Source: Candidatus Poribacteria bacterium
Lineage (GTDB): Bacteria; Poribacteria; WGA-4E; JAJDTR01
Reading direction: 5' to 3'
DNA length: 64,000 nt
Assembly (NCBI GenBank): GCA_028820655.1
Contig: JAPPIK010000045.1
Span: 62,001 to 126,000, forward strand
The position numbers and the translations under genes were made by a program. Shown here one piece after another: positions 27,040-49,870 of the stretch (positions are counted from its first letter, which is position 1; each line of letters begins with the position of its first letter). Below the pieces are notes generated by a model. The model did no database searches. It was given only the letters and a program-made list of their open reading frames with translations, and was not told the DNA's origin.

Positions 27040-29901
27040 CTAGAAACTCTGTGTAATGCGGAGGATGGACAAACGACCGATCTCCGGCACACCGACGAAC
27101 TCCTGATGCTCGTTGTTCAGCAGGTTCTGTATTGCAAGCGACACGCGGGTGTTGGGCGAGAACGGCAGATCGTAGCCGGCGCTCAAGTCAAATGTCGTGT
27201 ACCGCTCGACAGTGCCGTGGTAGACGCCGGAATTAACGGGAAATGCGTCCACAAAGCGAACCCGCAGTTGCGCCGCCAAGTTGCTCAGACCGGCATTCAA
27301 GTATTCGACACTCGCACCGATTTTGTGCTTTGGAGCGTTCAACGCGACATCTCGCAAACCGTCGACGTTTTCGAACAGGTCTTCGCTGACGAAGGAATAG
27401 TTGCCGCCGATATTCCAGTTCTCGTTGAGGAAGTAGGCAAATTTGAAGTCCGCTCCGTTCAACGAGATATCACCGAAGTTGCGGTAGGTTGAGGTCACGG
27501 CTACAGGGTCGTTCGCCTCTTCCGGGGTAACCGTTCCGAACGGTATTCCAGCTCCACCCGTAGCGAAAAGAGTAGCCAATTCGTCGGCTGCGGAGCCGTT
27601 ACTGTTGCCGCCGAACGCCGGGTTCTTGTCCAACATCGCGACCAAGGCTCCATTGAGTATGGCGTTCTGTGGATCATCCAACGCAGCCCCGAAATGCCTG
27701 CCCAAATACGCGCCGAGTGTCGCGGGATCGAGGAATACGTTCGGCGTCTCCGGTGTTATGGGCCCCACAAAATCTCTAATCTTTGTATGGTAGGCGTCAA
27801 CGCCGATCAGGAGTTTGTTGAACAGCGTTCCCTTGTAACCCAGCTCATAAGTCTGCGTGATGGTTGGTTTCATGGGCTCAACGTCAAATGCATCGTCAAC
27901 TTGGGTAAACTCCAACGTTTCCAGATTGAGAGACCGCATCACGTTCTTGACACCTTCCACCTGCCGCGGAACGATGGCATCAAACGCCTTGGACAATACC
28001 TCAATTTGAGCCGCCGGCATCCCCTGTGCCGTCAACAGTTGCGTCGCCTGACCGAGGAATTCCTTCATCGCCGCGCCGCGTGCCACACCCCACATCACGT
28101 TGGTGAATACCGGATCGTCTAGCTCAATGTAGTCGTTTGGCGTGCGTTGAGCGAGCGGCGCAAACGGCGATCTAAACTGCGGACGGCCATCCGCGCTGCG
28201 TCTGAAATGAAATCCTTCAAGACCGACGCCTTGCCCGCGAATGTCAATGGCGGGACTGAAGGGGAGCAAACCTTTGAACGCCGCTCCCAATCCGAACCCG
28301 TCTTCTGCCGCTCGAATATCGAGAAAGAGGTTATTCGTGGTCGGGGTTGAGTAGGCGCGGTTGTAAGTGGCGCGCACGTTGTGGTCGGCGGCCGGCTTGA
28401 ACACCAGAGCGGCGCGCGGTGAGATAACCGGGTTTTCGAGATGGCTGTGATTGTCCAACCGAGCCGCCGCGACAAACCTGAGTTGGTCTGTCAATTCGGT
28501 TTCCGATTGCAGATAAAACCCAATTTCGTTGGTGTTGTCGTCGTCTTCATTTGCGCCTGTGATAGAACCCTCCGTGACCGGGCGCGTGAGAAGCGCGTCG
28601 ACACCGTAAGTGAGTCGCTCCCGGCTGCCCAATGAGAGCCCGTGTTGCAGTTGTGCAACCAACAAACTTGATTTGTCTATGATTGGCGCTCCGTCCCGCA
28701 GCAAGAAAGTGTCGCCCGCGTCGCTCGTATTCAAAAATACCTGGGCAAAAAGATCTTTATAAAGCGCCCGAGCTTGGACATAACTGTATGTCCAGTCAAT
28801 CGCTTGACCTGCGCCTAGACCGGTCAGTTCAATGTTGCTTGCCTGTGTAAAGCCGCCATTAAGAATAGTGGTCAAGTCTTCGTTGACGCGGTAATCAACC
28901 CGTGCTTCGCCGGCAAGTTGCTGTACATCGAAGTCGCGCGCCCCAATCTTGAGATTCTCCTCGGGCACTCCGGCGTCGATTTGCTGCTGGCGAAGTAACG
29001 CTTCAACAGGGTCGGTAGAATTCCAATCTTCGCCCTGCATGCCTCTGAAACTCAGTTTGTATCCGATCCTATTGTCTAAACTGCCCGCGTGCCGAACAGA
29101 ACCCATGAGAACACCGCGTTCGCCGCCGCCGAGGCTGACTCGCGTTCCTTCCGATCCGAACGGCGGTTTGGTGATTATATGAAACACACCGTTCGCGCTG
29201 TTTGGACCGTACAACGCCGAACCGGGTCCCGAAACCACTTCGACCCGCTCAATGTCGCTTTGAGGCGTTGGTATAAAGTTGTAAGCGTTCAGACGCAAGG
29301 AGGGGACTCTGGCGATCCGATTGTCTACGAGCGATAACAGCGAACCGGAGAAGACGTTGCTGAAACCTCTCACCGTGACGTTGGATTGCGTAATCCCCGT
29401 GTCGGAAACGTCCACCGCCGGCAGCGATTTGAGGTGTTCCGTCGGGGTAACGGCGACGCGCGAATCAATTTGGGTGTCATCCAACACCGAAATGGCGGCA
29501 GGCGCTTCAATCACCTTTTCTTGACGCCGCGAGGTGGTGACTGAAACTTGGTCAAGTTGTATGACTCTTGAGAATAGCCCAATCTCAACCGACTTCGTCT
29601 CGTCGCCTCTAAGTTCGACATTTGACGTAACTTTATCGGCGTAACTCAGGGACGAGACGCTGATGGAGTAAATGCCGGCAGGCAACTCGGCGAACTGGGC
29701 GGCACCCATCGCGTCGCTCGTGCCTTCTCTTGAGTCGCCTGTTTGCGGGATGACGGTGAGTGAGATTCCGGCCAGCCTGTCGCCGCTTTGGGCGTCGGTG
29801 ACCATTACGTTCAAAGTCGCGGCGTGGAGCGTCACCGAAGTCAACCCCAAAACCGCGAAAAGGGCAAATAAAATGCACGACCGAATAGCCAACTGCTTCA
29901 T
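27040..29901 (-). CDS. TonB-dependent outer-membrane receptor 1
   Basis: The 953-residue protein (from ATG 29901, AAAGGAGAG just upstream) starts with a signal peptide MKQLAIRSCILFALFAVLGL ending in LHA, then a carboxypeptidase-regulatory-like beta sandwich (~28-105), a plug domain (VSVTTSRRQEKV TonB-box-like start, SGPGSALYGPNSANGV) and a long beta-barrel ending RITQSF, with the terminal aromatic residue used in outer-membrane insertion. It imports a scarce ligand with TonB energy; the ligand is unknown. The gene is a close paralogue of the receptor at 30938-33811. Confidence 0.9.
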   Translation of the reverse strand: MKQLAIRSCILFALFAVLGLTSVTLHAATLNVMVTDAQSGDRLAGISLTVIPQTGDSREGTSDAMGAAQFAELPAGIYSISVSSLSYADKVTSNVELRGDETKSVEIGLFSRVIQLDQVSVTTSRRQEKVIEAPAAISVLDDTQIDSRVAVTPTEHLKSLPAVDVSDTGITQSNVTVRGFSNVFSGSLLSLVDNRIARVPSLRLNAYNFIPTPQSDIERVEVVSGPGSALYGPNSANGVFHIITKPPFGSEGTRVSLGGGERGVLMGSVRHAGSLDNRIGYKLSFRGMQGEDWNSTDPVEALLRQQQIDAGVPEENLKIGARDFDVQQLAGEARVDYRVNEDLTTILNGGFTQASNIELTGLGAGQAIDWTYSYVQARALYKDLFAQVFLNTSDAGDTFLLRDGAPIIDKSSLLVAQLQHGLSLGSRERLTYGVDALLTRPVTEGSITGANEDDDNTNEIGFYLQSETELTDQLRFVAAARLDNHSHLENPVISPRAALVFKPAADHNVRATYNRAYSTPTTNNLFLDIRAAEDGFGLGAAFKGLLPFSPAIDIRGQGVGLEGFHFRRSADGRPQFRSPFAPLAQRTPNDYIELDDPVFTNVMWGVARGAAMKEFLGQATQLLTAQGMPAAQIEVLSKAFDAIVPRQVEGVKNVMRSLNLETLEFTQVDDAFDVEPMKPTITQTYELGYKGTLFNKLLIGVDAYHTKIRDFVGPITPETPNVFLDPATLGAYLGRHFGAALDDPQNAILNGALVAMLDKNPAFGGNSNGSAADELATLFATGGAGIPFGTVTPEEANDPVAVTSTYRNFGDISLNGADFKFAYFLNENWNIGGNYSFVSEDLFENVDGLRDVALNAPKHKIGASVEYLNAGLSNLAAQLRVRFVDAFPVNSGVYHGTVERYTTFDLSAGYDLPFSPNTRVSLAIQNLLNNEHQEFVGVPEIGRLSILRITQSF

Positions 29902-30156
29902 TGTATGCTCTCCTTTAATGAGCGTGTATCGTTGTTGGTGTCCGTCTTGACGACGGGAGCCAAGAGAATCGAAACTATTCATTACTTCTAATTTGAAGGT
30001 CAAAAGTGTTGCAAACAAGGGAATTCAAACTGTTACTTAAAACATTTCCCTGTATTTGTACCGCATCAATAGTGTCAATCGATTCTTTCCGCTGCGGGGC
30101 AAGATGCCCCGCCTACAAGGTTCTGTTACATATTCTGTGGTGGTTGTTGGTAAGTT

Positions 30157-30519
30157 CTACTCAATAGAGGAAGGGTTAATCATATAATCGAAACTCAACC
30201 ATAGGCTGCGGGAGTATCGGAAAAAAAGGGCGGGGAAGAGGCCGCTGAAGACAATCCACAAAATGAAGTTTTGGAGAAAGGGGATGGGAGTCAAGTAATC
30301 CAACGCAAAATAGCCGCCGAATGCAATGAAAACGGTGGCTCCGTAGTTAATGTACATCGCGCCGACAAAGTAGCCGGGTTCGCGTTCAAATTTGAAGCCG
30401 CAGTTGGAACAATCCAAGTTCATTTTGAACAAGCCGGCGAACATGACTCCTCGGCGGCATTTTGGACACTTTAGACGTAACCCGTCCAGAAGAATCTGAC
30501 GCTTGCTGAGTTTCGACAT
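30157..30519 (-). CDS. DUF983-family membrane protein
   Basis: A 120-residue protein with an N-terminal zinc ribbon (C18-x2-C21 and C37-x2-C40: CPKC, CSNC) followed by two transmembrane helices (YINYGATVFIAFGGYFAL and a second near the C-terminus). The PGYFVGAMYINYG motif is characteristic of DUF983, whose function is unknown; some members sit near cytochrome oxidase genes. Here it lies between two TonB-dependent receptor genes on the same strand, separated by 138 and 418 bases. Confidence 0.82.
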   Translation of the reverse strand: MSKLSKRQILLDGLRLKCPKCRRGVMFAGLFKMNLDCSNCGFKFEREPGYFVGAMYINYGATVFIAFGGYFALDYLTPIPFLQNFILWIVFSGLFPALFFRYSRSLWLSFDYMINPSSIE

Positions 30520-30816
30520 CTCTGGTATTCTCGTCTTCTAAGCCAAGGTCTTCAAAATGCGAAACAAGCACTATATAGAACGAAATGATTCTAGCACGGC
30601 TATTTGGGCATGTCAACGATGTTTTGGATTTTTGCAATATCGATGGCGGGTGTGGACTAGGAAACGCTGTCAATGTGGGTTGGGTTGAACGGGGCAAACC
30701 GAACTCAACCGGGATTTCAGACGACATGTATCCTTTTTGATGACGCTTCCGTGTAAGAATGGATAGCGAAACCCAACAATACAACACGGTTTCTTCGTTA
30801 AAACGTCGCGGCTACC

Positions 30817-30935
30817 GTAGGAGCGATCTCCGAATCGCGACCATTACCGAATTACGCCGAAGTCGGGAATCGGAGGAGATCTCTATCGCGCAGGATTAGT
30901 TGTCGCCCTCGTTGTCCACTCGGATGATCCTACCA
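30817..30935. repeat. Repeat cluster: GTAGGAGCGAT hairpin and broken GATCAA/GCGATAG copies
   Basis: GTAGGAGCGATCTCCGAATC at 30817 is the REP-like repeat also present at 52011. It is followed by reverse-oriented pieces CTCTATCGCGC and GTCGCCCTCGTTGTCCACTC of the MITE-like family. No gene lies in 30520-30937. Confidence 0.5.
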
Positions 30936-30937
30936 AA

Positions 30938-33811
30938 TTAGAGGCTTTGGGTGATTCGGAAAAGCGACAGTCTGCCAATTTCCGGCACTCCCACAAACTC
31001 CTGGTGCTTGTTGTTCAGGAGGTTTTGTACGGCTAGCGATACGCGCGTGTTGGGCGAAAACGGGAGGCTGAAACCGGTGTTCAGGTCAATCGTCGTGTAC
31101 CGCTCGACCGTGCCGTGATAAATGCCCGAATCAACCGGGAAAGCATCCACAAACCGAAGCCGTAATTGTGCCGTCAGATTGTTCAGATTGGAATTTAGGT
31201 ACTCGACGCTCACGCCGAATTTGTTCCGCGGCGCGTTCAGCGCGATGTCGCGCAATCCGTCAACCTTTTCGAATAGATCCTCGCTGACGAGAGAGTAGGT
31301 TCCGCCGAGGTTCCAATTCTGGTTGAGGAAGTAAGCGAATTTGAAGTCCAAACCGTTCACCGAAAGTTCCCCGAAGTTGCGATAGGTTGTCGTCACGGCG
31401 GTCGGATACTCCGATTCTATCGGACTCACGGTCCCGAGGGGGATCGCCGCTGCACCCTTCGTAAATAGCGTCGTCAATTCATCGACGGCGGAGCCGTTTC
31501 CGTTGCCGCCAGCCAACGGGTTGGTATCTAACGCGGCAATCAACGCGGCGTTCGCCACGCCGTTCTTTGGATCGTTCAACTTCGCCGCAAACTCTTTTCC
31601 TAGGGAAGCGCTCAAAGTACCCGGATCGAGGAACACATTCGGCGTTTCCGCGGCGATCGACCCCACAAAATTCCTGATCTTGGTGTGATAGACGTCAACA
31701 CCGACTAACAGTTTGTTGAACAGTGTGCCCTTGTAACCGATCTCGAACGTCTGCGTAATTGTCGGTTCCAGCCGGTCGACATCGAAGACATCGTCAACCT
31801 CGGCAAACTCTAACGTTTCCAAATCGATTGTACGCATCACATTCTTTACATCCGAAATCTGTTGCGGAACGGCGGAATCCAGCACTTGGGTCAACAAACC
31901 CACCTGCGTTTGAATCTGTGCATCCGGCACCCCCAATGCGCCCAATCCCTTCTGGATCTCGGAAAGGAATCCGTTCATAACGGCACCCCGCGCAACGCTC
32001 CACATCACGTTCGTAAACTGCGGGTTGTCGAGGTCGATGTAGTCGTTAGCTGTTAATCTGGCGAGTGGAGCGAACGGCGATCGGAATCGCGGGCGTCCGT
32101 TCTCGCTACGACTGAAATGGAACCCTTCTTGAGGAACACCCTGTGCCCGGATATCGGTACTCGGGCTGAAGCCGAGAGTCGGGTTAAACAACGCGCCCAA
32201 CCCGAACGCATCTTCCGCCGCTCGGACGTCAACAAAGAGGTTATTTGTTGTTGGGGTGGTGAAGGCGCGGTTATAAGTCGCACGGATGTTGTGGTCCGAA
32301 TGCGGTTGGAAGACCAGCGCGGCGCGCGGCGAGAACACCGTACCTTCGAGTCGGTTGTGTTTGTCGAACCGCGTAGCCCCTACCAGTTTCAGTCTGTCCG
32401 TCAACTCGGTTTCGGACTGCAAGTAGACGCCGATTTCGTTAATGTTGTCATCCGCTTCGTTGGCGCCGTTTATTGTCCCGTCGGTGTTCGGGCGGGTCAG
32501 CAGCATGTCGACGCCGTAAGTCAGACGTTCGCGGGACCCCAACGAGACACCGTGCTGCAACTGTCCGACGAGCAATGTAGATCTGTCTACCAGCAGAGAT
32601 CCTTCTCGCAGGAGGAAAGTATCGCCCGCATTGCTCTTGTTCAGAAATGCTTGGGCGAACACGTCTTTGTAGAGCGCCCGCGCCTGCAAATACCTATACG
32701 TCCACCCGGCTGATTGTGCCGCACCTATACCCGTGAGTTCGATACCGGATGCTTGCGTGTATCCGCCGTTAAATATGGCGGTGAGATCGTCGTTAACCCG
32801 GTAGTCGACGCGGGCTTCCAAACTCTGTTTTTCAATGTCGAAATTTCGCGCGCCGATCCGAACGTCGTCCTCTGGAACCCCCGCATTAATTCGCTGTAGG
32901 CGCAATAGCTGCTCTACCGGATCCGTGTAGTGCCAATCTTCGCCCTGGGTATACTCGCCAGTAATCTTGTACCCGAGCTTGTTGTTGATGCTTCCGGCGT
33001 GCCGGCACGAGCCAACGAACACACCGCGTTCGCCGGTGGCGAGACCGACTTGCGTGCCTTCCGAACCGAAGGGGGATTTGGTCAAGATATGGATGACTCC
33101 GTTTGCGCTGTTGGGACCGTAGAGCGCCGAGCCGGGACCGGAGACTACCTCAATCTGGTCAATGTCGTCGTCGGGAGTGGAGACAAGGGTATAGGCATTC
33201 ACGCGCAACGAGGGAACGCTGGCGATGCGATTGTCCACGAGGGACAAAAGCGAGCTGGAAAGCACGTTGCTGAATCCTCTTACGGTGACGTTTCCTTGCG
33301 ATATACCGGTGTTGAAAGTGTCTACCGCCGCGACCGACTTGAAGTGCTCCATCGGTGTTAGGGCGACGCGCGATTGGATTTGCGTATCATCCAAGACGGA
33401 GACCGACGCGGGCGCCTCAAGCACTTTCTCTTGGCGGCGGGAGGTGGTGACCGACACTTGATCGAGTTGAATCACTCGTGAAAAAAGCGCTATCTCTACG
33501 GATCTGGTCTCCTCGGCCTGAAGTTCAACGTTGGACACCACTTTGCCGGCGTAACTCAGCGAGGAGGCGTTAACCGCATAGATGCCGGCGGGCAATTCCG
33601 TAAATTGAGCCGCGCCCATCGCATCCGTCGCACCCTCTCTTGAATCGCCGGTTTGGGGGATAACGGTAATCGAGATGTTGGCCAATTCGGCGTCGGTTTG
33701 GGCGTCTGTCACGGTCACGTTCAACGTCGCGGCTTGCGCCATCGCCGAAGCCAAGAAAGCAAGGGCGGCTAGAGCCGATAACAAACCGCTCCGAATATAC
33801 GACTGTTCCAT
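30938..33811 (-). CDS. TonB-dependent outer-membrane receptor 2
   Basis: At 957 residues it matches receptor 1 along its whole length: signal peptide MEQSYIRSGLLSALAALAF to AQA, carboxypeptidase-regulatory-like domain with GDSREGATDAMGAAQFTELP, plug with SGPGSALYGPNSANGVIHI, and a barrel ending RITQSL. The C-terminal Leu replaces the Phe of receptor 1. A GGAGAGA site lies before the ATG. The two genes are a tandem duplication interrupted by DUF983; divergence concentrates in barrel loops, so they may take different ligands. No iron box or riboswitch is evident upstream. Confidence 0.9.
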   Translation of the reverse strand: MEQSYIRSGLLSALAALAFLASAMAQAATLNVTVTDAQTDAELANISITVIPQTGDSREGATDAMGAAQFTELPAGIYAVNASSLSYAGKVVSNVELQAEETRSVEIALFSRVIQLDQVSVTTSRRQEKVLEAPASVSVLDDTQIQSRVALTPMEHFKSVAAVDTFNTGISQGNVTVRGFSNVLSSSLLSLVDNRIASVPSLRVNAYTLVSTPDDDIDQIEVVSGPGSALYGPNSANGVIHILTKSPFGSEGTQVGLATGERGVFVGSCRHAGSINNKLGYKITGEYTQGEDWHYTDPVEQLLRLQRINAGVPEDDVRIGARNFDIEKQSLEARVDYRVNDDLTAIFNGGYTQASGIELTGIGAAQSAGWTYRYLQARALYKDVFAQAFLNKSNAGDTFLLREGSLLVDRSTLLVGQLQHGVSLGSRERLTYGVDMLLTRPNTDGTINGANEADDNINEIGVYLQSETELTDRLKLVGATRFDKHNRLEGTVFSPRAALVFQPHSDHNIRATYNRAFTTPTTNNLFVDVRAAEDAFGLGALFNPTLGFSPSTDIRAQGVPQEGFHFSRSENGRPRFRSPFAPLARLTANDYIDLDNPQFTNVMWSVARGAVMNGFLSEIQKGLGALGVPDAQIQTQVGLLTQVLDSAVPQQISDVKNVMRTIDLETLEFAEVDDVFDVDRLEPTITQTFEIGYKGTLFNKLLVGVDVYHTKIRNFVGSIAAETPNVFLDPGTLSASLGKEFAAKLNDPKNGVANAALIAALDTNPLAGGNGNGSAVDELTTLFTKGAAAIPLGTVSPIESEYPTAVTTTYRNFGELSVNGLDFKFAYFLNQNWNLGGTYSLVSEDLFEKVDGLRDIALNAPRNKFGVSVEYLNSNLNNLTAQLRLRFVDAFPVDSGIYHGTVERYTTIDLNTGFSLPFSPNTRVSLAVQNLLNNKHQEFVGVPEIGRLSLFRITQSL

Positions 33812-35626: not shown

Positions 35627-36205
35627 GACATAACTTACACGGAACCGGCGCCTTTAGAAGCGCTCGTGCAACGCTTTGGTCGTATTAACCGCCGCAGAAA
35701 ACAGAGAGACCTTGCACCAGTTCACGTGTTCCGCCAACCCGACGACGGGCAAAAGATTTATGACACCGAACTGGTGCGACGGACGATAGAGATTCTTGAG
35801 CGCGAAAATGGATGCCCAATTGACGAGAACTCTATTGGAGCTTGGTTAGATGAAATCTACAGCGGCGAGATTGAAGCGCGCTGGCGAGAGGAATACGAAA
35901 TTGCCGCCGCAGACTTTGACAAAACTTGTGTGAGAACAATGCGTCCGTTTTCGGCAAATGAGGAACTTGAGAATCTGTTTTTCAAAGCGTTTGATGGGCT
36001 TGAGGTGCTACCAGGTTCGATGTATAAAGAATACAAATCCGTTTGCGACAATGAGCCAATTCGCGCTGGAGAACTGTTAGTTCCGATAAGCTGGAGGAGA
36101 TATCACGCTCTAAGAAATGATGATAGAATCTTGCCCCGGGAACGGAAAGAACCGTATCGCGTTAATGCCGCGTACGACTCGGAGGTGGGAATGACGTTTG
36201 ATTAA
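35627..36205 (+). pseudogene. cas3: C-terminal remnant of CRISPR helicase-nuclease Cas3
   Basis: From about 35627 the frame reads ITYTEPAPLEALVQRFGRIN, the motif VI region of Cas3 helicases (QRFGRxxR), then VHVF and a C-terminal domain with FDGLEVLPGSMYKEY and ELLVPISWRRYH, both typical of Cas3 C-termini. The N-terminal HD nuclease, Walker A and DEAH regions are absent, and an in-frame stop (35624) with unrelated sequence lies immediately upstream. About 190 codons of a ~750-codon gene remain. A GTG at 35666 could start a 179-residue product, but it could not be an active helicase. It points toward cas1 3 kb downstream on the same strand, so this was once a type I CRISPR operon. Confidence 0.75.
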
Positions 36206-37455: not shown

Positions 37456-37824
37456 CTATCGCCACTGATTGAGGATGTGTATTTCGTTGGCGATAGGCAA
37501 GTTTGAAGCCGACAGGTTTGCGATGGATCTGACGATGTCAATATTGTTCATATCCTTGCGGATGTTGTTGTCACGGTAGATAACAAAAATTCCTGAATGC
37601 GTAAATCCTCGATCCTGCCAATCACGGTGTAATCGGCGAAAATCTAAGGGGTTATGGGTAAGTACACAGTAACCATGAGCCGCGGCGTAACGGAGGTGGT
37701 CGCCATCGTCCAAGTCTTTGGTATTTGTCGATCGGGGTGATATAACGGTGTGTCCTGCCAGCGTGAGGGAATGGATTAGACGGTTATCATCAGAACAATC
37801 GTCAAGGTAGATTGTGAGAGACAT
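37456..37824 (-). CDS. DUF5615-type PIN-like toxin
   Basis: The 122-residue protein matches the PIN-like DUF5615 layout: N-terminal strand TIYLDDCSDD with acidic residues, LTLAGHTVISP, then DGDHLRYAAAHGYCVLTHNPLDF with the conserved Asp and THN(P/R)xDF motif. Such proteins are Mg-dependent RNases partnered with DUF433 antitoxins. The stop of the DUF433 gene is 2 bases upstream of this ATG, so they are co-transcribed. Confidence 0.8.
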   Translation of the reverse strand: MSLTIYLDDCSDDNRLIHSLTLAGHTVISPRSTNTKDLDDGDHLRYAAAHGYCVLTHNPLDFRRLHRDWQDRGFTHSGIFVIYRDNNIRKDMNNIDIVRSIANLSASNLPIANEIHILNQWR

Positions 37825-38328: not shown

Positions 38329-38706
38329 CTATGCTTCCTTACCCGCTTCGGGTTGATTCGAAGTTTCAGCGATTACAGTTGCATTCGTAGCTGATTTATC
38401 TTCGTAACGATGCGCTTCCATATACGCCCGCAGCACCGCGTTAATACGTGTTTGATAACCGCGTCCTTGCGATTTGAACCACGCCAGCACGTCGCCATCG
38501 ACCCGCATTGAAATGGCGCGTTTAGGCTGCGGAATCACGATCCGGGCATCCTTCCAGAACGCCTCATCCGTCGGTTGAGCGTCCGGATCCGATGCCGCTG
38601 CCGCATCGATGTCGGCCTCGGTCATATTTTTGACCTGTTCCCAGTCAGTTTGTGTGTTTTCCGGGAGGTTATTGAGAGAAACCCTCACGGTACGTTCTTC
38701 TTTCAC
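38329..38706 (-). CDS. brnA: BrnA-type antitoxin
   Basis: The protein (125 residues from GTG 38706) carries VKEERTVRVSLNNLPENTQ, an acidic linker, and a C-terminal ribbon-helix-helix segment KRAISMRVDGDVLAWFKSQG followed by YQTRINAVLRAYMEAHR, the DNA-binding fold of BrnA antitoxins. I chose the GTG because AGGAGGG lies ~9 bases upstream and conserved sequence begins there; in-frame codons further upstream are just the brnT gene read in another frame. The gene overlaps brnT by 38 bases. It neutralises BrnT and represses the operon. The C-terminal ~20 residues are an unusual Thr/Asn/Glu-rich tail. Confidence 0.82.
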   Translation of the reverse strand: MKEERTVRVSLNNLPENTQTDWEQVKNMTEADIDAAAASDPDAQPTDEAFWKDARIVIPQPKRAISMRVDGDVLAWFKSQGRGYQTRINAVLRAYMEAHRYEDKSATNATVIAETSNQPEAGKEA

Positions 38707-38944
38707 GGCGATTTGCCCTCCTTGCTGAAATAATCCGTCGATTACCGCCTGGGGTGGTGTAAACGACATAAAGTATGATGCCTTCAACCGTGCCCATTGC
38801 GGCAACTCGTTTTTCGTCATAATCGCGGCGTTCGTCTACGACTTCAAAAGTCGGATTCTCGAATATCCGCACCGCATTCGCAAAGTCAATGCCGTGCTTT
38901 TCGATGTTATGTTGGTTCTTCATTGAATCCCATTCAAAATCCAT
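38669..38944 (-). CDS. brnT: BrnT-type ribonuclease toxin
   Basis: The 91-residue protein begins MDFEWDSMKNQHNIEKHGID, the BrnT signature (FEWDxxKxxxNxxKHG), with ENPTFEVVDERRDYDEKR and RRIISARRANRRERRTY supplying the RelE-like basic catalytic face. BrnT is a bacteriostatic RNase. The start ATG at 38944 lies only a few bases after the expected transcription start, so the mRNA would be nearly leaderless. Confidence 0.85.
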   Translation of the reverse strand: MDFEWDSMKNQHNIEKHGIDFANAVRIFENPTFEVVDERRDYDEKRVAAMGTVEGIILYVVYTTPGGNRRIISARRANRRERRTYREGFSQ

Positions 38945-38953
38945 GACACATAT

Positions 38954-38982
38954 AGTATACAGTGTGTATATACAGATGTCAA
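38954..38982 (-). promoter_or_regulatory. brnTA promoter with overlapping inverted repeat
   Basis: Minus strand TTGACA (38982-38977), 17 bases, TATACT (38959-38954). A GTATA...TATAC inverted repeat spans the spacer and -10 box, a good candidate BrnA operator. The start codon is 10 bases after the -10 box. Confidence 0.7.
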
Positions 38983-39082
38983 GACAAAAAATATCCAAAT
39001 AACTGAGGTTGCCGCTTTAAAGTCGGTGATCTCTGATCGCTGCTAATTCTGAGGTTTCCCATTGATACGTATCACGCATTGC

Positions 39083-39198: not shown

Positions 39199-40308
39199 AT
39201 GAACCAACTCACTATCTCCGATTACGGCACATCGCTCGGCAAACGTTCCGAGCGCGTCAACGTGCGCTACCGCGATAAGGAGCGAGAGAAAGAGGAGCAC
39301 GCCCTCATGGATCTGGATCAGATTGTCATCGCGTCGCGCGGGGTTAGTTTGTCGTCCGACCTGATCGAGGCGTGCACCGAGCGCGGGATTGAAATCTCGT
39401 TTCTCAGTTTCAGCGGCAAACCGTATGCAAAGCTCAACAGCCCTTCGTTGACGGCGACGGTCATCTCGCGGCGTGAGCAACTCGCCGCGTATCACGATGA
39501 GCGCGGGGTGGAGATTGCCAAGCGGTTCGCGGCGGGGAAACTGCGGAATCAGATAAACTTGGTGCGCTATTTCGGCAAATACCGCAAGAAAAGTGCGCCC
39601 AAGAGGTACGACGAACTGGCGGAGCGGGCTACCAAAATTGAGGAGTTGATGGGCGATATTCATGCCCTCCAAGCGCCGAATGTTGCGGGGAACGGGGAGT
39701 CGCCGATTGACGCTCTCCGGGCGACGCTGCTCAACCTTGAGGGCCGGGCGGGGGCGCTCTACTGGGAGTGCGTGGGTCGGCTGCTGCCCGCCGGACGGTT
39801 CACGACGCGAGAGCATCAGGGTGCGGCGGACGATGTGAACGCGCTGCTCAACTACGGCTACGGGATGCTTTATTCCCAAGTGTGGAGCGCGCTCGCGTTG
39901 GCTGGGCTGGAACCGTTTGCAGGTTTCTTGCATGTCGATCGCCCGGGCAAGCCGTCGTTGGTGTTGGATTTCATAGAGGAGTTCCGCCAACCGATTGTTG
40001 ATCGGGTGGTGTTTGCGATGATTAACAAAAAGTTCAAGGTCGAGTGGGAGGAGCCGGATGACGATGCCGCCAAAGCGGCGCACCAGTCGGCAAAGCCGGA
40101 TGCGGAAACGGACGTGGGTACGCAGCGGTATTTGAGCAGGGGCACGCGGCGCGCGCTCGCCGACCGGATTCTGGAACGGCTTCAGGAGACGGAGCGATTC
40201 GAGCGCAAAGACCAGAAGTTATGCAATATCATCCAGATTCAAGCGCGTCATCTGGCGATGTTCCTGCGCGGGGAGAGGGATTATCAGCCCTTGGTGGCGA
40301 GTTGGTAA
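39199..40308 (+). CDS. cas1: CRISPR integrase Cas1
   Basis: The 369-residue protein has the Cas1 catalytic triad region: E190 in ALYWECVGRLLP, H245 in LHVDRPGKPSLVLDFIEEFR, and acidic residues D257/E260. Cas1 forms a complex with Cas2 that integrates new spacers at the leader end of the array. It is longer than the usual ~330 residues, partly because of an acidic, Ala-rich insertion (EWEEPDDDAAKAAHQSAKP, residues ~282-300) before the conserved C-terminal helices. An AAAGGAAAGAG ribosome-binding site precedes the ATG. The active site looks intact, unlike the interference part of the locus. Confidence 0.93.
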   Translation: MNQLTISDYGTSLGKRSERVNVRYRDKEREKEEHALMDLDQIVIASRGVSLSSDLIEACTERGIEISFLSFSGKPYAKLNSPSLTATVISRREQLAAYHDERGVEIAKRFAAGKLRNQINLVRYFGKYRKKSAPKRYDELAERATKIEELMGDIHALQAPNVAGNGESPIDALRATLLNLEGRAGALYWECVGRLLPAGRFTTREHQGAADDVNALLNYGYGMLYSQVWSALALAGLEPFAGFLHVDRPGKPSLVLDFIEEFRQPIVDRVVFAMINKKFKVEWEEPDDDAAKAAHQSAKPDAETDVGTQRYLSRGTRRALADRILERLQETERFERKDQKLCNIIQIQARHLAMFLRGERDYQPLVASW

Positions 40309-40371: not shown

Positions 40372-40434
40372 TAAATATCGCCAAACCGCCACAACTGTCG
40401 AAACCAAGTTTTTCCTGAAAACTTAATTTCTTCT

Positions 40435-40487
40435 AACCACTAACCACTAACCACTGACCACTAACCACTGACCACTAACCACTGTTT
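40435..40487. repeat. Seven-base tandem repeat (TAACCAC/TGACCAC)
   Basis: About seven copies of a 7-base unit end six bases before the cas2 start. The same TGACCAC words and CCACTGTTTTT occur again inside the broken CRISPR array at ~42938-42969. Confidence 0.75.
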
Positions 40488-40493
40488 TTCCCC

Positions 40494-40745
40494 ATGCACA
40501 CATACGTCATTTACGACATCGTTGACGACCGTATCCGCAAGAAGATAGCGGATGTCTGTCTCGACTACGGCTTGAAGCGCATCCAATACAGCGCGTTCTT
40601 GGGAGACATCAACACCACGCGGCGGCGAGGGTTGGAGGCGAAACTGGCGCATGAATTCGGGGATGCGGAGGGAAAGATTGAAGTGATCGGTGTGTGCGCG
40701 AAGGATTTCGATCAACGCACGATTATCGGGGATGCAGAAAGATGA
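40494..40745 (+). CDS. cas2: CRISPR-associated protein Cas2
   Basis: The 83-residue protein begins MHTYVIYDIVDDRIRKKIAD, with the Asp at the end of the first strand and the conserved RRIQYSAFLG-like segment (KRIQYSAFLGDI). Cas2 dimerises and bridges two Cas1 dimers during spacer integration. The start has no good ribosome-binding site; the preceding 60 bases are the 7-base tandem repeat. Its TGA overlaps the cas4 ATG (ATGA). Confidence 0.92.
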   Translation: MHTYVIYDIVDDRIRKKIADVCLDYGLKRIQYSAFLGDINTTRRRGLEAKLAHEFGDAEGKIEVIGVCAKDFDQRTIIGDAER

Positions 40746-41314
40746 ATATACGGGTTAGCGACATCAAACAGTATTTCTACTGTCCGCGGGTGGTCTATCA
40801 CACGTACTTCACTCCGGTGCACCGTCCGACAACGCATCCGATGGAGCTCGGCGCTGCCGAACACGAGGTGTTGAGCGTCTTGGAGCGCCGCCGGACGCTT
40901 GCGCGTTACGGGCTTGAGGCAGGCAGCCGGAAGTTCCACGTTTCGCTCCATGCCGAGTCGCTGGGATTGACCGGCGTGCTCGATCTGCTTATCGAGACGG
41001 AAGCCGGGGCGTTTCCCGTCGAGTTCAAGAGCACGAGGGGACGGCTGGACCTGAACGCGAGATGCCAGTTGACGGCATACGCGATGATGGTGGAGGAGTG
41101 CCTTGGCGTCTCGGTGACTCAAGGATTCATCTATCGGATTCCCACGGGACGGATCACGCCGGTGACGATTTCAGAGGGATTGCGCGAGAACACGCGCGGC
41201 GCGCTGCGGGACATCCGAAGAATGTTGTCGGATGAGTGGATGCCTCCGCCGACTTCTCAGCGCGGGAAGTGCGTCGAGTGCGAATTTCGGCGATTCTGCG
41301 CCGATGTGTTGTAA
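40742..41314 (+). CDS. cas4: CRISPR-associated exonuclease Cas4
   Basis: The 190-residue protein has the four Cas4 iron-sulfur cysteines: C14 (YFYCPR) and C177, C180, C186 (KCVECEFRRFC). The RecB-type nuclease core is visible as GVLDLLIE (Asp) and PVEFKSTRG (Glu-x-Lys) with QLTAYAMM (Gln). Cas4 trims prespacers and selects for PAM and orientation. Start ATG 40742 overlaps the cas2 stop, so translation is coupled. The order cas1-cas2-cas4 is unusual: cas4 more often precedes cas1. Confidence 0.92.
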   Translation: MNIRVSDIKQYFYCPRVVYHTYFTPVHRPTTHPMELGAAEHEVLSVLERRRTLARYGLEAGSRKFHVSLHAESLGLTGVLDLLIETEAGAFPVEFKSTRGRLDLNARCQLTAYAMMVEECLGVSVTQGFIYRIPTGRITPVTISEGLRENTRGALRDIRRMLSDEWMPPPTSQRGKCVECEFRRFCADVL

Positions 41315-41817: not shown

Positions 41818-42782
41818 GTAGCAACCTATGCCCCGATGAAAAGGGGACTGAAAGGCGCAACCATCTCCTGCTCCCGCGCAACCGCCTTCGTAGCAACCTA
41901 TGCCCCGATGAAAAGGGGACTGAAAGATGAGCATAAAGAGAGTTGGGAAAAATTCAAGAAGTAGCAACCTATGCCCCGATGAAAAGGGGACTGAAAGTTC
42001 GGTTATGAGTGAGGATAAAGAGTGTATTGATGGTAGCAACCTATGCCCCGATGAAAAGGGAACTGAAAGGACCCGCTATCATGAGCAACCTTTTCTGTAG
42101 CAGGTGTAGCAACCTATGCCCCGATGAAAAGGGGACTGAAAGACTTGCCAAGCTGATTCCTTGTCTCGCCCGTGAAAGTAGCAACCTATGCCCCGATGAA
42201 AAGGGGACTGAAAGCCTGCTGATTTCTCAGGATTCATATAAGCCCCGATAGTAGCAACCTATGCCCCGATGAAAAGGGGACTGAAAGGCTGAATATACCT
42301 AGCACTTCCGAATCATCTAGTGTGTAGCAACCTATGCCCCGATGAAAAGGGGACTGAAAGACAATCATCACCTTAGCCTTGTCATTGCCGCTTGCTGTAG
42401 CAACCTATGCCCCGATGAAAAGGGGACTGAAGGCGTTAGTGGCAGTAAATGTAATTGTATTGGCGTTAGTAGCAACCTATGCCCCGATGAAAAGGGGACT
42501 GAAAGCTGTTATCGGGTATTTGCACTTGGGCGGCAATCATGTAGCAACCTATGCCCCGATGAAAAGGGGACTGAAAGATATCTATCAATGTGGCATCGTC
42601 AGCCGCAGCGTCGTAGCAACCTATGCCCCGATGAAAGGGGGACTGAAAGTGTAAAGCGGTATCCCGTGCCTGTCTCCAAACTGTAGCAACCTATGCCCCG
42701 ATGAAAAGGGGACTGAAAGTCCCGATCTCGCCGTAGTAGGTGTCGCTCAGTATGCGTAGCAACCTATGCCCCGATGAAAAGG

Positions 42783-42897
42783 ATCAAGCGACTGGATAAG
42801 GAGCGCGATAGAAATCCCGCACAGTGACCAAGAGTAGGCGGATATGACGAAATCTTATTATGTGAACACTATCGCCCTCCCTATTCGTTAGGTTGAC
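42783..42897 (+). mobile_element. MITE-like element in the CRISPR array, copy 1
   Basis: It begins ATCAAGCGACTGGATAAGG and AGCGCGATAG, and ends CTATCGCCCTCCCTATTCG then TTAGGTTGAC: imperfect terminal inverted repeats of ~30 bp around a ~50-bp core with no coding capacity. The left flank is a CRISPR repeat cut after GATGAAAAGG. The right flank is not repeat sequence but ~70 bases of other DNA, including TGACCAC words, before the next repeat. Confidence 0.65.
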
Positions 42898-43070
42898 GCC
42901 CTAGGCCAATGGGAAGCAAAGGCTGTTGCCTTTACTGGTCACTGACCACTGGCCACTGACCACTGTTTTTGCAGCAACCTATGCCCCGATGAAAAGGGGA
43001 CTGAAAGCTTCGTAACTCACGACTTCCGACGGCCAGATCTCGTGTAGCAACCTATGCCCCGATGAAAAGG

Positions 43071-43191
43071 ATCAAGGGAGCGAATAGCGACCGCGATAGC
43101 ATATCTTGTACTACTTCATGCGCGGATGAAAAGGCAAGTCTTCGATTGTGTCAGGAAGATTTCTATCGCCCTCACTGTTCGTTTGGTTGAT
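43071..43191 (+). mobile_element. MITE-like element in the CRISPR array, copy 2
   Basis: Left end ATCAAGGGAGCGAATAGCG and ACCGCGATAG; right end TTTCTATCGCCCTCACTG then TTCGTTTGGTTGAT. Left flank CCCGATGAAAAGG and right flank CCCGATGAATAGG may be a 13-bp target-site duplication. The core contains GATGAAAAGG again at ~43123. No transposase. Confidence 0.7.
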
Positions 43192-43276
43192 TCCCGATGA
43201 ATAGGGGACTGAAAGTGCAGCCTCCAGCCTGTCAACTTCCGCAAGATTGGTTGCAACCAGTGCCCCGATGAAAAGG

Positions 43277-43934
43277 ATCAATAAAGCAGATAGCGCTCCC
43301 TGTTTCAACGCGGTAATAGGGTCGGGGTTCTCCGCCCGCAATCGCCTCAAACCCTTTAAGCGCGGTTTCCCGATTGCTCCCTCGTTACCAGCATCAATCA
43401 CTGATCCAGTAAACCGCTTAGCGAAGGTGATAGGAAGTCCCGTCCACTTTTCGCTCGTACGATCGCCTGCACTCAAATCGAATCGTCACGTCTTTTCGCG
43501 TGGTATGGCAATCCGCCGCTCATAAAATAATCGTCATCCATCCGGCGTTAACGTAACGATAACCCAAGGATATTTTAGATGCCTCCGCGAGGGGTAGATT
43601 AAACACAGATAGGGCGTCGTTGGTGGATTTTGGAAAGATCGGCAGGCGGTATCGTATTACGACGTGGGACTAGTGCGGGAAACTGCCGTGAGCGAACGCA
43701 CTACGGATCGGACTGTTCGCGCACCCAGGCAGTATTCTCCGTCTGTGATTTTGGGAAATGGAGGAGCAACAGTAACGCTGTCGAATCAAAGAGAAATCCC
43801 GGTTTCCCTCCCTCCACCTGCCAGGGCGCACGGGCAATACAGAGGTCCGCCAAATTGCGGAATTTGCGAAACCCAACGCCTTCGTAGGGGTTTCCACGGG
43901 GAAGGAACAACTCAAGAGTCCACTGGAGGGCACC
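43277..43934. other. Degenerate region downstream of the CRISPR array
   Basis: It starts ATCAATAAAGCAGATAGCG right after a repeat cut at GATGAAAAGG, suggesting a third, more decayed element end. The remaining ~620 bases have no convincing gene: the open frames are short, overlapping and unlike known proteins. Confidence 0.5.
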
Positions 43935-49044: not shown

Positions 49045-49870
49045 TTCAAGAATAAACTTAAGTTTTGTCCTGAATCCAAACCGCTCCTGCTGGATTGTCA
49101 AATCCGGCAGGTCTTTATCTAACCAATAGAGTGGGTTGAATTCGATGAACCTAAGTAATCAGCTTTCCATTCTTGCTAATCCTTAAGGAAGATTAGCTTT
49201 TCAATTGAAACTTGCTCCAAAGGAAGATTCAAGAATAAGCTTTACATTTAGAGGTTGAAATAGAAAATACGCCCCCTGACTGCTCCTGCTGGATTGTCAA
49301 ATCCGGCAGGTCTTTATCTAACCAATAGAGTGGGTTGAATTCGATGAACCTAAGTAATCAGCTTTCCATTCTTGCTAATCCTTAAGGAAGATTAGCTTTT
49401 CAATTGAAACTTGCTCCAAAGGAAGATTCAAGAATAAGCTTTACATTTAGAGGTTGAAATAGAAAATACGCCCCCTGACTGCTCCTGCTGGATTGTCAAA
49501 TCCAGCAGGTCTTTATCTAACCAATAGAGTGGGTTGAATTCGATGAACCTAAGTAATTAGCTTCCCATTCTTGCTAATCCTTAAGGAAGATTAACTTTTA
49601 AATTGAAACTTGCTCCAAAGGAAGATTCAAGAATAAGCCCCCTGACTGCTCCTGCTGGATTGTCAAATCCAGCAGGCCTCTATCTAACCAATAGGGTGGG
49701 TTGAAAACGGTGAAACCAAAGTGTTCAGCTTCCTTTTCTTGCTTATCTTTAAGGAAGATTAACTTTTAAATTGAAACTTGCTCCAAAGGAAGTTTCAAGA
49801 ATAAACTTAAGTTTTGTCCTGAATCCAAACCGCTGCTGCTGGATTGTCAAATCCGGCAGGTTCTAATCTG
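49045..49870 (-). repeat. Tandem array of ~199-bp units with conserved hairpins
   Basis: Units begin (GCTCCTGCTGGATTGTCA) at 49083, 49282, 49481, 49648 and a last partial one at 49832; periods are 199, 199, 167 and 184 bases. Each has a CTGCTGGATT/AATCCRGCAG hairpin with loop GTCA; where the left arm T faces G or A the stem is still kept. Each full unit has a second hairpin GCTAATC/GATTAGC followed by T-rich sequence. The array is flanked by the same AAACTTAAGTTTTGTCCTG block on both sides. A single inverted copy lies at 10041-10125. Strand is given to match that copy and is otherwise arbitrary. Confidence 0.9.

Follow-up and report, generated by a model that had tools for sequence, protein, structure and literature searches.

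A 36-nt hairpin repeat inserted at a fixed base of CRISPR repeats and other palindromes in a Candidatus Poribacteria genome

Results and discussion

Three repeats of a CRISPR array in the window (the whole stretch of 64,000 nt that was analysed) are broken at the same base by inserts whose building block, 36 nt long, has the form A[T/G]CAA-hairpin-GCG[A/G]TAG-ARATCCC; the genome contains about a thousand copies of it. The unit is probably an abundant non-coding small mobile repeat, REP/SMR-like, which attacks palindromes at a fixed base, with the CRISPR hairpin as one class of target and a Y1 HUH enzyme as a possible mobiliser.

CRISPR locus and interrupted repeats

The DNA is from Candidatus Poribacteria, a sponge-associated bacterium with a genome of 5.9 Mb (5.88 Mb) in draft assembly. 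The array consists of direct repeats with regular spacers, adjoined by cas genes. Its intact repeat, GTAGCAACCTATGCCCCGATGAAAAGGGGACTGAAAG, is present in 14 copies and folds as a C-arm/G-arm hairpin, CCCC-GATGAAAA-GGGG; in an Rfam search of 10 kb the array repeats were weakly similar to CRISPR-DR10, below the gathering score. The cas genes found at the locus were only cas1, cas4 and the C-terminal remnant of a Cas3-type helicase, and the CRISPR-Cas locus looks degraded. Its features, with the broken repeats from direct reading, are as follows.

35666 to 36205, plus strand, Cas3-type helicase, C-terminal remnant (a weak TIGR01587 match, E 4e-4 and below the cut-off, that spans residues 310-356 of 358)
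39199 to 40308, plus strand, cas1 (Pfam PF01867, E 4e-71; TIGR00287)
40694 to 41314, plus strand, cas4 (PF01930; TIGR00372)
41818 to 43007, plus strand, CRISPR array with 14 uninterrupted 37-nt repeats (41818 ... 42683, then 42971) and spacers of 33-36 nt
42756 to 42782, plus strand, interrupted repeat 1, repeat positions 1-27 (GTAGCAACCTATGCCCCGATGAAAAGG), cut after ...GATGAAAAGG
43044 to 43070, plus strand, interrupted repeat 2, repeat positions 1-27
43250 to 43276, plus strand, interrupted repeat 3, a slightly diverged copy of repeat positions 1-27

The first-pass annotation had claimed that three repeats were cut and continued as ATCAA, and direct reading confirmed this: the repeats at 42756, 43044 and 43250 each stop past position 27 and are followed by ATCAA. 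The 14 intact repeats alongside them served as the empty-site control; they show the empty form, and ATCAA is therefore not part of the CRISPR repeat. The cut lies within the CCCC...GGGG stem-loop, as was also claimed, and splits the 3' GGGG arm after two of its G residues. All three broken repeats sit toward the end of the array distal to cas1-cas4 (the trailer end, with the old repeats). The chance expectation for hits at this base was ~0.0015 (about 1,000 units and 18 repeats).

Other features of the window include a BrnT/BrnA toxin-antitoxin pair (38329-38998) between the Cas3 remnant and cas1, a gene for a DUF5615 PIN-like protein (37456-37824), and, at 27040-33811, a closely spaced minus-strand pair of large TonB-receptor-like genes, highly similar to each other and encoding 992 and 957 aa. 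A heptamer tandem repeat, (CTAACCA/CTGACCA)n, is found upstream of the array (40433-40484) and within it (42934-42965); it also occurs elsewhere in the genome, where it now and then hosts the hairpin unit. A 199-bp tandem repeat of about 3 copies, 98 % alike and overlapping a 168-bp period, lies at 49083-49804.

Anatomy of the inserts

Units in the array were located by a 1-kb search with a covariance model, R1, built from genomic copies.

42783 to 42818, plus strand, hairpin unit at the left end of insert 1 (60.8 bits)
42862 to 42897, minus strand, facing unit, diverged, at the right end of insert 1 (15.9 bits, E 6e-5 in 1 kb)
43071 to 43099, plus strand, hairpin unit at the left end of insert 2 (39.8 bits)
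43108 to 43134, plus strand, degenerate CRISPR-repeat-like segment within insert 2 (19 of 27 identical, family D2)
43156 to 43191, minus strand, facing unit at the right end of insert 2, with the TTGAT joint (38.6 bits)
43192 to 43215, plus strand, repeat positions 14-37 (TCCCGATGAATAGGGGACTGAAAG) to the right of insert 2, read directly and taken either as duplicated target or as the 3' part of the following repeat; the joint was found twice in the sister species
43277 to 43300, plus strand, degenerate unit remnant of insert 3, ATCAA ... GATAGCGCTCCC (10.0 bits, E 0.005 in 1 kb)

The scores bear out the claim that two of the three inserts, 1 and 2, have both ends; insert 3 is weak. The ~30-bp terminal inverted repeats described earlier are in fact two units facing each other, and the family as a whole is made up mostly of single 36-nt hairpins. 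The inner sequences of the inserts contain no clear spacer remnant, and the repeat-like stretch at 43108-43134 shows decay of the region.

Copy number and distribution of the unit

When insert 1 was used as the query, its first ~40 nt matched throughout the genome. The consensus derived for the unit is A[T/G]CAA-N2-GA-NY-GRATA-RN-GA-N2-GCG[A/G]TAG-ARATCCC (~36 nt). The pattern ATCAANNGANNGANNAGNGANNGCGATAG, with at most 3 mismatches allowed, gave 1,064 matches in 5.88 Mb and its reversed control 0, and the copy number in this genome is put at 960-1,064. The unit is without coding capacity, and 343 of 411 units lay in the gaps between called ORFs; these ORFs occupy 76 % of the DNA. The unit statistics were obtained from ~1.64 Mb of stretches, chosen partly for holding units, and from genome-wide pattern counts.

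Among the 58 genomes compared, the pattern was counted 766 times in the sister species of the same genus (G001), 245 times in a member of another family of the order (G004), 21 times in G014 and once in G010, and not at all in the other relatives. The G014 copies are confined to few contigs (e.g. L293, G014:C72) and so is that of G010 (G010:C127); bin contamination or a recent arrival of the element is possible. Matches to the degenerate pattern in named genomes all came from Candidatus Poribacteria, with records of the window's own genome perhaps omitted, and the viral contigs searched contained no copy.

Fold and folding strand

In 355 distinct copies, mutual information was highest for position pairs 9-17, 6-20 and 5-21 (1.04, 0.71 and 0.49 bits, respectively). 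The structure (((..((..((.....))..))..))), evaluated on 70 distinct copies, had 94.7 % of its cells paired and 76 double-change cells against 16.5 in shuffles; none of 500 shuffles attained its covariation score, and slid versions of the structure collapsed in the test. The hairpin, which has tandem G.A mismatches and a GRATA loop, is by this covariation a hairpin-forming palindrome within the 20-50 nt of GTAG/CGTC REPs. On the top strand G.T wobbles are common and the complementary A.C is nearly absent (TG 66 : CA 0 at one pair, GT 30 : AC 2 at another), and the top strand is therefore the folding strand. The minimum-energy fold under RNA parameters was the covarying structure in three of four top strands and not in the complement. 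Folding energies of single units were no better than those of shuffles with DNA parameters and within the shuffle range with RNA parameters, so that the case for the fold rests on covariation, single-copy energies being unexceptional.

Insertion sites

The left flanks of the units fall into recurrent host classes, each with one fixed insertion base, marked here by a caret; empty forms of the host classes are present in the same genome.

GTAGGAG^, 25 units
GTAGGGTGC/GA^, 24 units
CTCCAGMGG^, 19 units
ATARNGANNG^, the unit itself, 75 nested copies
GGCGGG^, CCCAGMGGGG^ and GTAGTAGCA^, further host classes

About 24 % of the units occupied the fixed base in one of the recognised palindromic hosts, where ~0.01 % was expected, and 176 of 402 had unclassified flanks. 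Two host families with ATAG-type tags, GCTCC-AGM-GGAGC and GCCCC-AGM-GGGGC, form the terminal hairpins of IS200/IS605-type Y1 elements in these genomes; hosts of the D/E class are termini of such elements. The CRISPR repeat is entered behind GG of the 3' arm when the top strand is read and behind GGGG when the bottom strand is read, much as hosts of the form CCCC-AGM-GGGG are entered behind GGG or GGGG. Insertion at hairpin tips, which GTAGGAG...CTCC had suggested, was rejected, the insertion base lying in the arms. Complementarity of at least 5 bp between left and right flanks was mildly raised (44 against ~22 in shuffles).

The cleanest filled/empty pair, from a comparison with the sister species, was CACTCCAGAGGA^GTGAGATGTC (also given as CACTCCAGAGGA^GTGAGATGTCAATAG), in which the filled form is longer by 36 nt and has no duplication; the two sites are of the same REP family and not necessarily orthologous. 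Several other host sites lose 2-5 nt on filling, a loss that simple single-strand insertion would not predict. The comparison with empty sites proposed in the first-pass annotation thus gave one fixed base per host repeat and no general target duplication.

The flank also differs between subfamilies. Units of the AG..GGTAG type had CC on the left in 28 of 32 cases and those of the AT..GATAG type in 21 of 325 (p 3e-24; 4e-9 without unit-tail hosts). This difference of one pair together with a switch of flank suggests guide-like target choice, and could also be a founder effect. The subfamily AGCAA...GCGGTAG, observed genome-wide in G000 (e.g. L105 12985, L133 5794), has a linked change of T2-A26 to G2-G26 and a left flank of CC, not GG or purines, and often forms tandem runs of period 35.

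Recurrence in the sister species

The check in related genomes that the annotation had proposed found the same base in use in the sister species, three of whose repeats are broken.

C66 of G001, 75697 to 72400, minus strand, orthologous CRISPR locus with one intact repeat, then three inserts

The left joints at this locus are GAAAAGCG^ATCAAGCG, GAAAAGAG^TCGAGCG and GAAAAGG^ATCAACTG, and the right joint is TTGAT^[CT]CCCGA in all three inserts, two of which were also found by pattern search. The repeats are broken at the same base as in the window, and the inner sequences are unlike those of the window. A search of the 58 genomes for the joint of CCCCGATGAAAAGG with ATCAA (at most 2 mismatches) gave 3 hits at the locus of the window, 1 at the orthologous locus of the sister species and 0 with the reversed control. 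Two other hits, in G010 and G041 with 2 mismatches, read GGATTAA and GGATAAA, not GGATCAA, and so differ at the joint itself. The genome with 245 units (G004) has an array of 84 repeats without any insert, and the hits therefore seem to be confined to decayed arrays.

Alternative readings of the inserts

A possible, though on the whole doubtful, alternative is that the facing units are the terminal repeats of a composite MITE/REPIN-like element of ~100-200 bp, moved in trans by a transposase whose cut through the CRISPR hairpin is staggered by 13-14 bp. All complete CRISPR inserts in both species do have facing units, their plus-strand ends are mostly of the GC type and their minus-strand ends of the CC type, and the joints (GG^ATCAA on the left, TTGAT^[CT]CCC on the right) leave the same 13-14-nt overlap, with CCCCGATGAAAAGG on either side, at insert 2 of the window and in the sister species. 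The flanks of insert 2 are those claimed earlier, CCCGATGAAAAGG and CCCGATGAATAGG, and the 13-bp target duplication proposed from them recurs to this extent at the CRISPR sites of both species; it is absent, however, from the clean single-unit pair outside CRISPR, and doublets elsewhere had no comparable flanking repeat. Facing pairs are moreover rare genome-wide: among neighbouring units within 400 bp, 204 pairs had the same direction, often in head-to-tail runs of period 35, against 19 facing and 12 diverging. Facing doublets span ~57-300 bp, and those in the CRISPR array ~100-200 bp. Because the array is itself a tandem repeat, a 13-bp duplication is inseparable from its structure. A duplication of 13-14 nt does exist at the CRISPR sites, but it is ambiguous: it could be the duplicated target of a composite whose ends face each other, or else repeats n and n+1 flanking separate insertions of opposite orientation.

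It is improbable that a single ancestral insertion was copied by duplication within the array, the common base then reflecting inheritance and not targeting. Inserts 2 and 3 of the sister species have related inner sequence, and the right (minus-strand) units of inserts 1 and 2 in the window are of the same subtype, with 4 differences. The left units of these two inserts, however, are not of one subtype: they disagree at 7 of 29 positions, compensatory double changes included; the 29-nt core of the first has 7 exact matches among genomic copies from outside the array, and the second has 2 differences from its nearest 8 outside copies. Each is nearer to outside copies than to the other, which argues for independent events, and several independent hits on CRISPR repeats are likely. 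The inner sequences of inserts 1 and 2 and of insert 1 in the sister species are also unrelated by eye, and the fixed-base rule is shared by many unrelated hosts.

An equally low probability is given to the hairpin being a transcribed RNA element, for processing or regulation, spread by an RNA route and not as the end of a single-stranded DNA transposon. The wobbles on the top strand and the fold under RNA parameters would agree with this, as would the orientation of units in 185 co-directional gaps, 127 along transcription and 58 against it. The bias is only moderate, however, with clusters that are not independent, and canonical REPs of the same genome have a like bias (75:24 in co-directional gaps). 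In the 10 kb searched, Rfam gave no match to the unit, only the weak matches to CRISPR repeats.

Chimeric assembly of a repeat-rich metagenome bin, conceivable for a draft genome with repeats everywhere, is very improbable, since the sister species, assembled separately, has joints of the same kind at the orthologous locus but unlike inner sequence between them, and its three repeats broken at the same base argue against an artefact.

Candidate mobiliser and proposed mechanism

Y1 transposase genes were present in 56 of the 58 relatives irrespective of the unit. Being nearly universal in the order, their presence does not single out the enzyme of the unit and was not diagnostic as a marker. 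Y1/RAYT genes are often near units, bordered by other hairpins (the GTAGGAGCGAT family surrounds two RAYT genes), and RAYT genes were on this ground rejected as carriers of the unit. In a search for an autonomous partner among Y1 genes only, those inspected likewise ended in hairpins other than the unit. The IS200/IS605-type Y1 genes are bordered by the hairpins that the unit attacks, which are themselves dispersed repeats; at L287-L297, Y1 genes have a pair of hairpins on each side, each hairpin followed 3' by an ATAG-type tag.

On the preferred reading, that of a small mobile repeat, the unit would spread by fixed-base insertion into palindromes, namely GTAG-tagged REPs, terminal hairpins of the IS200/IS605 type and itself, and the CRISPR repeat, with its C-arm/G-arm hairpin, would be struck by the same rule. 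Mobilisation in trans is plausible: a Y1 HUH enzyme (TnpA_REP or IS200-type) may move the unit in its folded, single-stranded DNA form and would choose the cut site through pairing with the foot of the element, so that insertion would be directed by structure and G-runs. A lagging-strand mechanism would predict that the strand of the unit is associated with GC skew, and no such association was found. Over tens of kb in the C41, C61 and C32 stretches of the window's genome (G000), the units share the orientation of the GTAG REPs and switch with them, which GC skew does not explain. The folded top strand, the lack of general duplication, the fixed host base and the foot-linked flank together resemble the logic of IS200/IS605 elements, whose cleavage sites are selected by guides carried on the element (PMC8266576). 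A further generalisation, tentative and somewhat unlikely, is a minimal mobile DNA of ~36 nt, with the stem foot as a guide to the G-rich arms of any folded single-stranded DNA hairpin, an HUH enzyme in trans, and CRISPR arrays as recurrent structural targets.

The family offers ~1,000 copies with fixed insertion points and both filled and empty sites, and its natural subfamily, in which the foot pair and the target dinucleotide change together, makes guide-like targeting directly testable.

Relation to known systems

Of the earlier reading as a MITE-like mobile element, the mobile repeat, the one fixed CRISPR base and the preference for palindromes stand. As a general form MITE fails, because terminal inverted repeats are absent from most copies; the description fits the CRISPR inserts superficially and not the family. 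The unit is best regarded as a small mobile repeat of the REP/SMR type with CRISPR repeats as an unusual target.

REP/BIME sequences associated with TnpA_REP (RAYT) are imperfect palindromes of 20-50 nt in hundreds to thousands of extragenic copies (PMC8266576, PMC3733652). The unit is likewise a short palindrome in high extragenic copy number, with a conserved tetranucleotide-like tag and RAYT/IS200-type genes nearby. It cannot be filed as a canonical REP, because the tag is on the other side: canonical REPs have GTAG/CGTC 5' of the hairpin, whereas the unit has G[A/G]TAG 3' of it and A[T/G]CAA 5'. GTAG-23 of T. roseum and GTAG-15 of A. variabilis are REPs found within palindromes, GTAG-23 with hundreds of target palindromes (PMC3733652), and thus REP-type repeats inside other palindromes as here; they differ in sequence from the unit, which has several host families including itself and CRISPR repeats. 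The REP-specific insertion sequences ISPsy8, ISPa11, ISPpu9/10 and ISRm22 are inserted at one point of the REP (PMC1525189), but are autonomous, with a transposase gene and in some cases short duplications, whereas the unit is 36 nt long and non-coding.

Transposition into CRISPR loci has been described as rare, for archaea (PMC4390879), in contrast to the CRISPR repeats here, which are recurrent fixed-base targets of a mobile repeat. HqIRS37 of Haloquadratum is also a mobile repeat in a CRISPR array, known from a single hit in a spacer (PMC3119063), whereas the present unit recurs at one base of the repeat in two species.

The nearest described behaviour, by analogy, is that of SMR-A of Haloquadratum walsbyi (PMC3119063). 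SMR-A elements are short non-coding repeats without target duplication, of enigmatic mobilisation, which insert by strong preference inside palindromes near the termini of IS605-type transposons and of elements derived from these; they are ~110 bp long, with prominent inverted terminal repeats and at most 54 copies (PMC3119063). The unit resembles SMR-A in behaviour, in that it enters palindromes of the IS605 type and leaves no duplication at the clean site. It differs in its length of 36 nt, its ~1,000 copies, its mostly head-to-tail arrangement and its nesting within itself, and in also entering CRISPR repeats.
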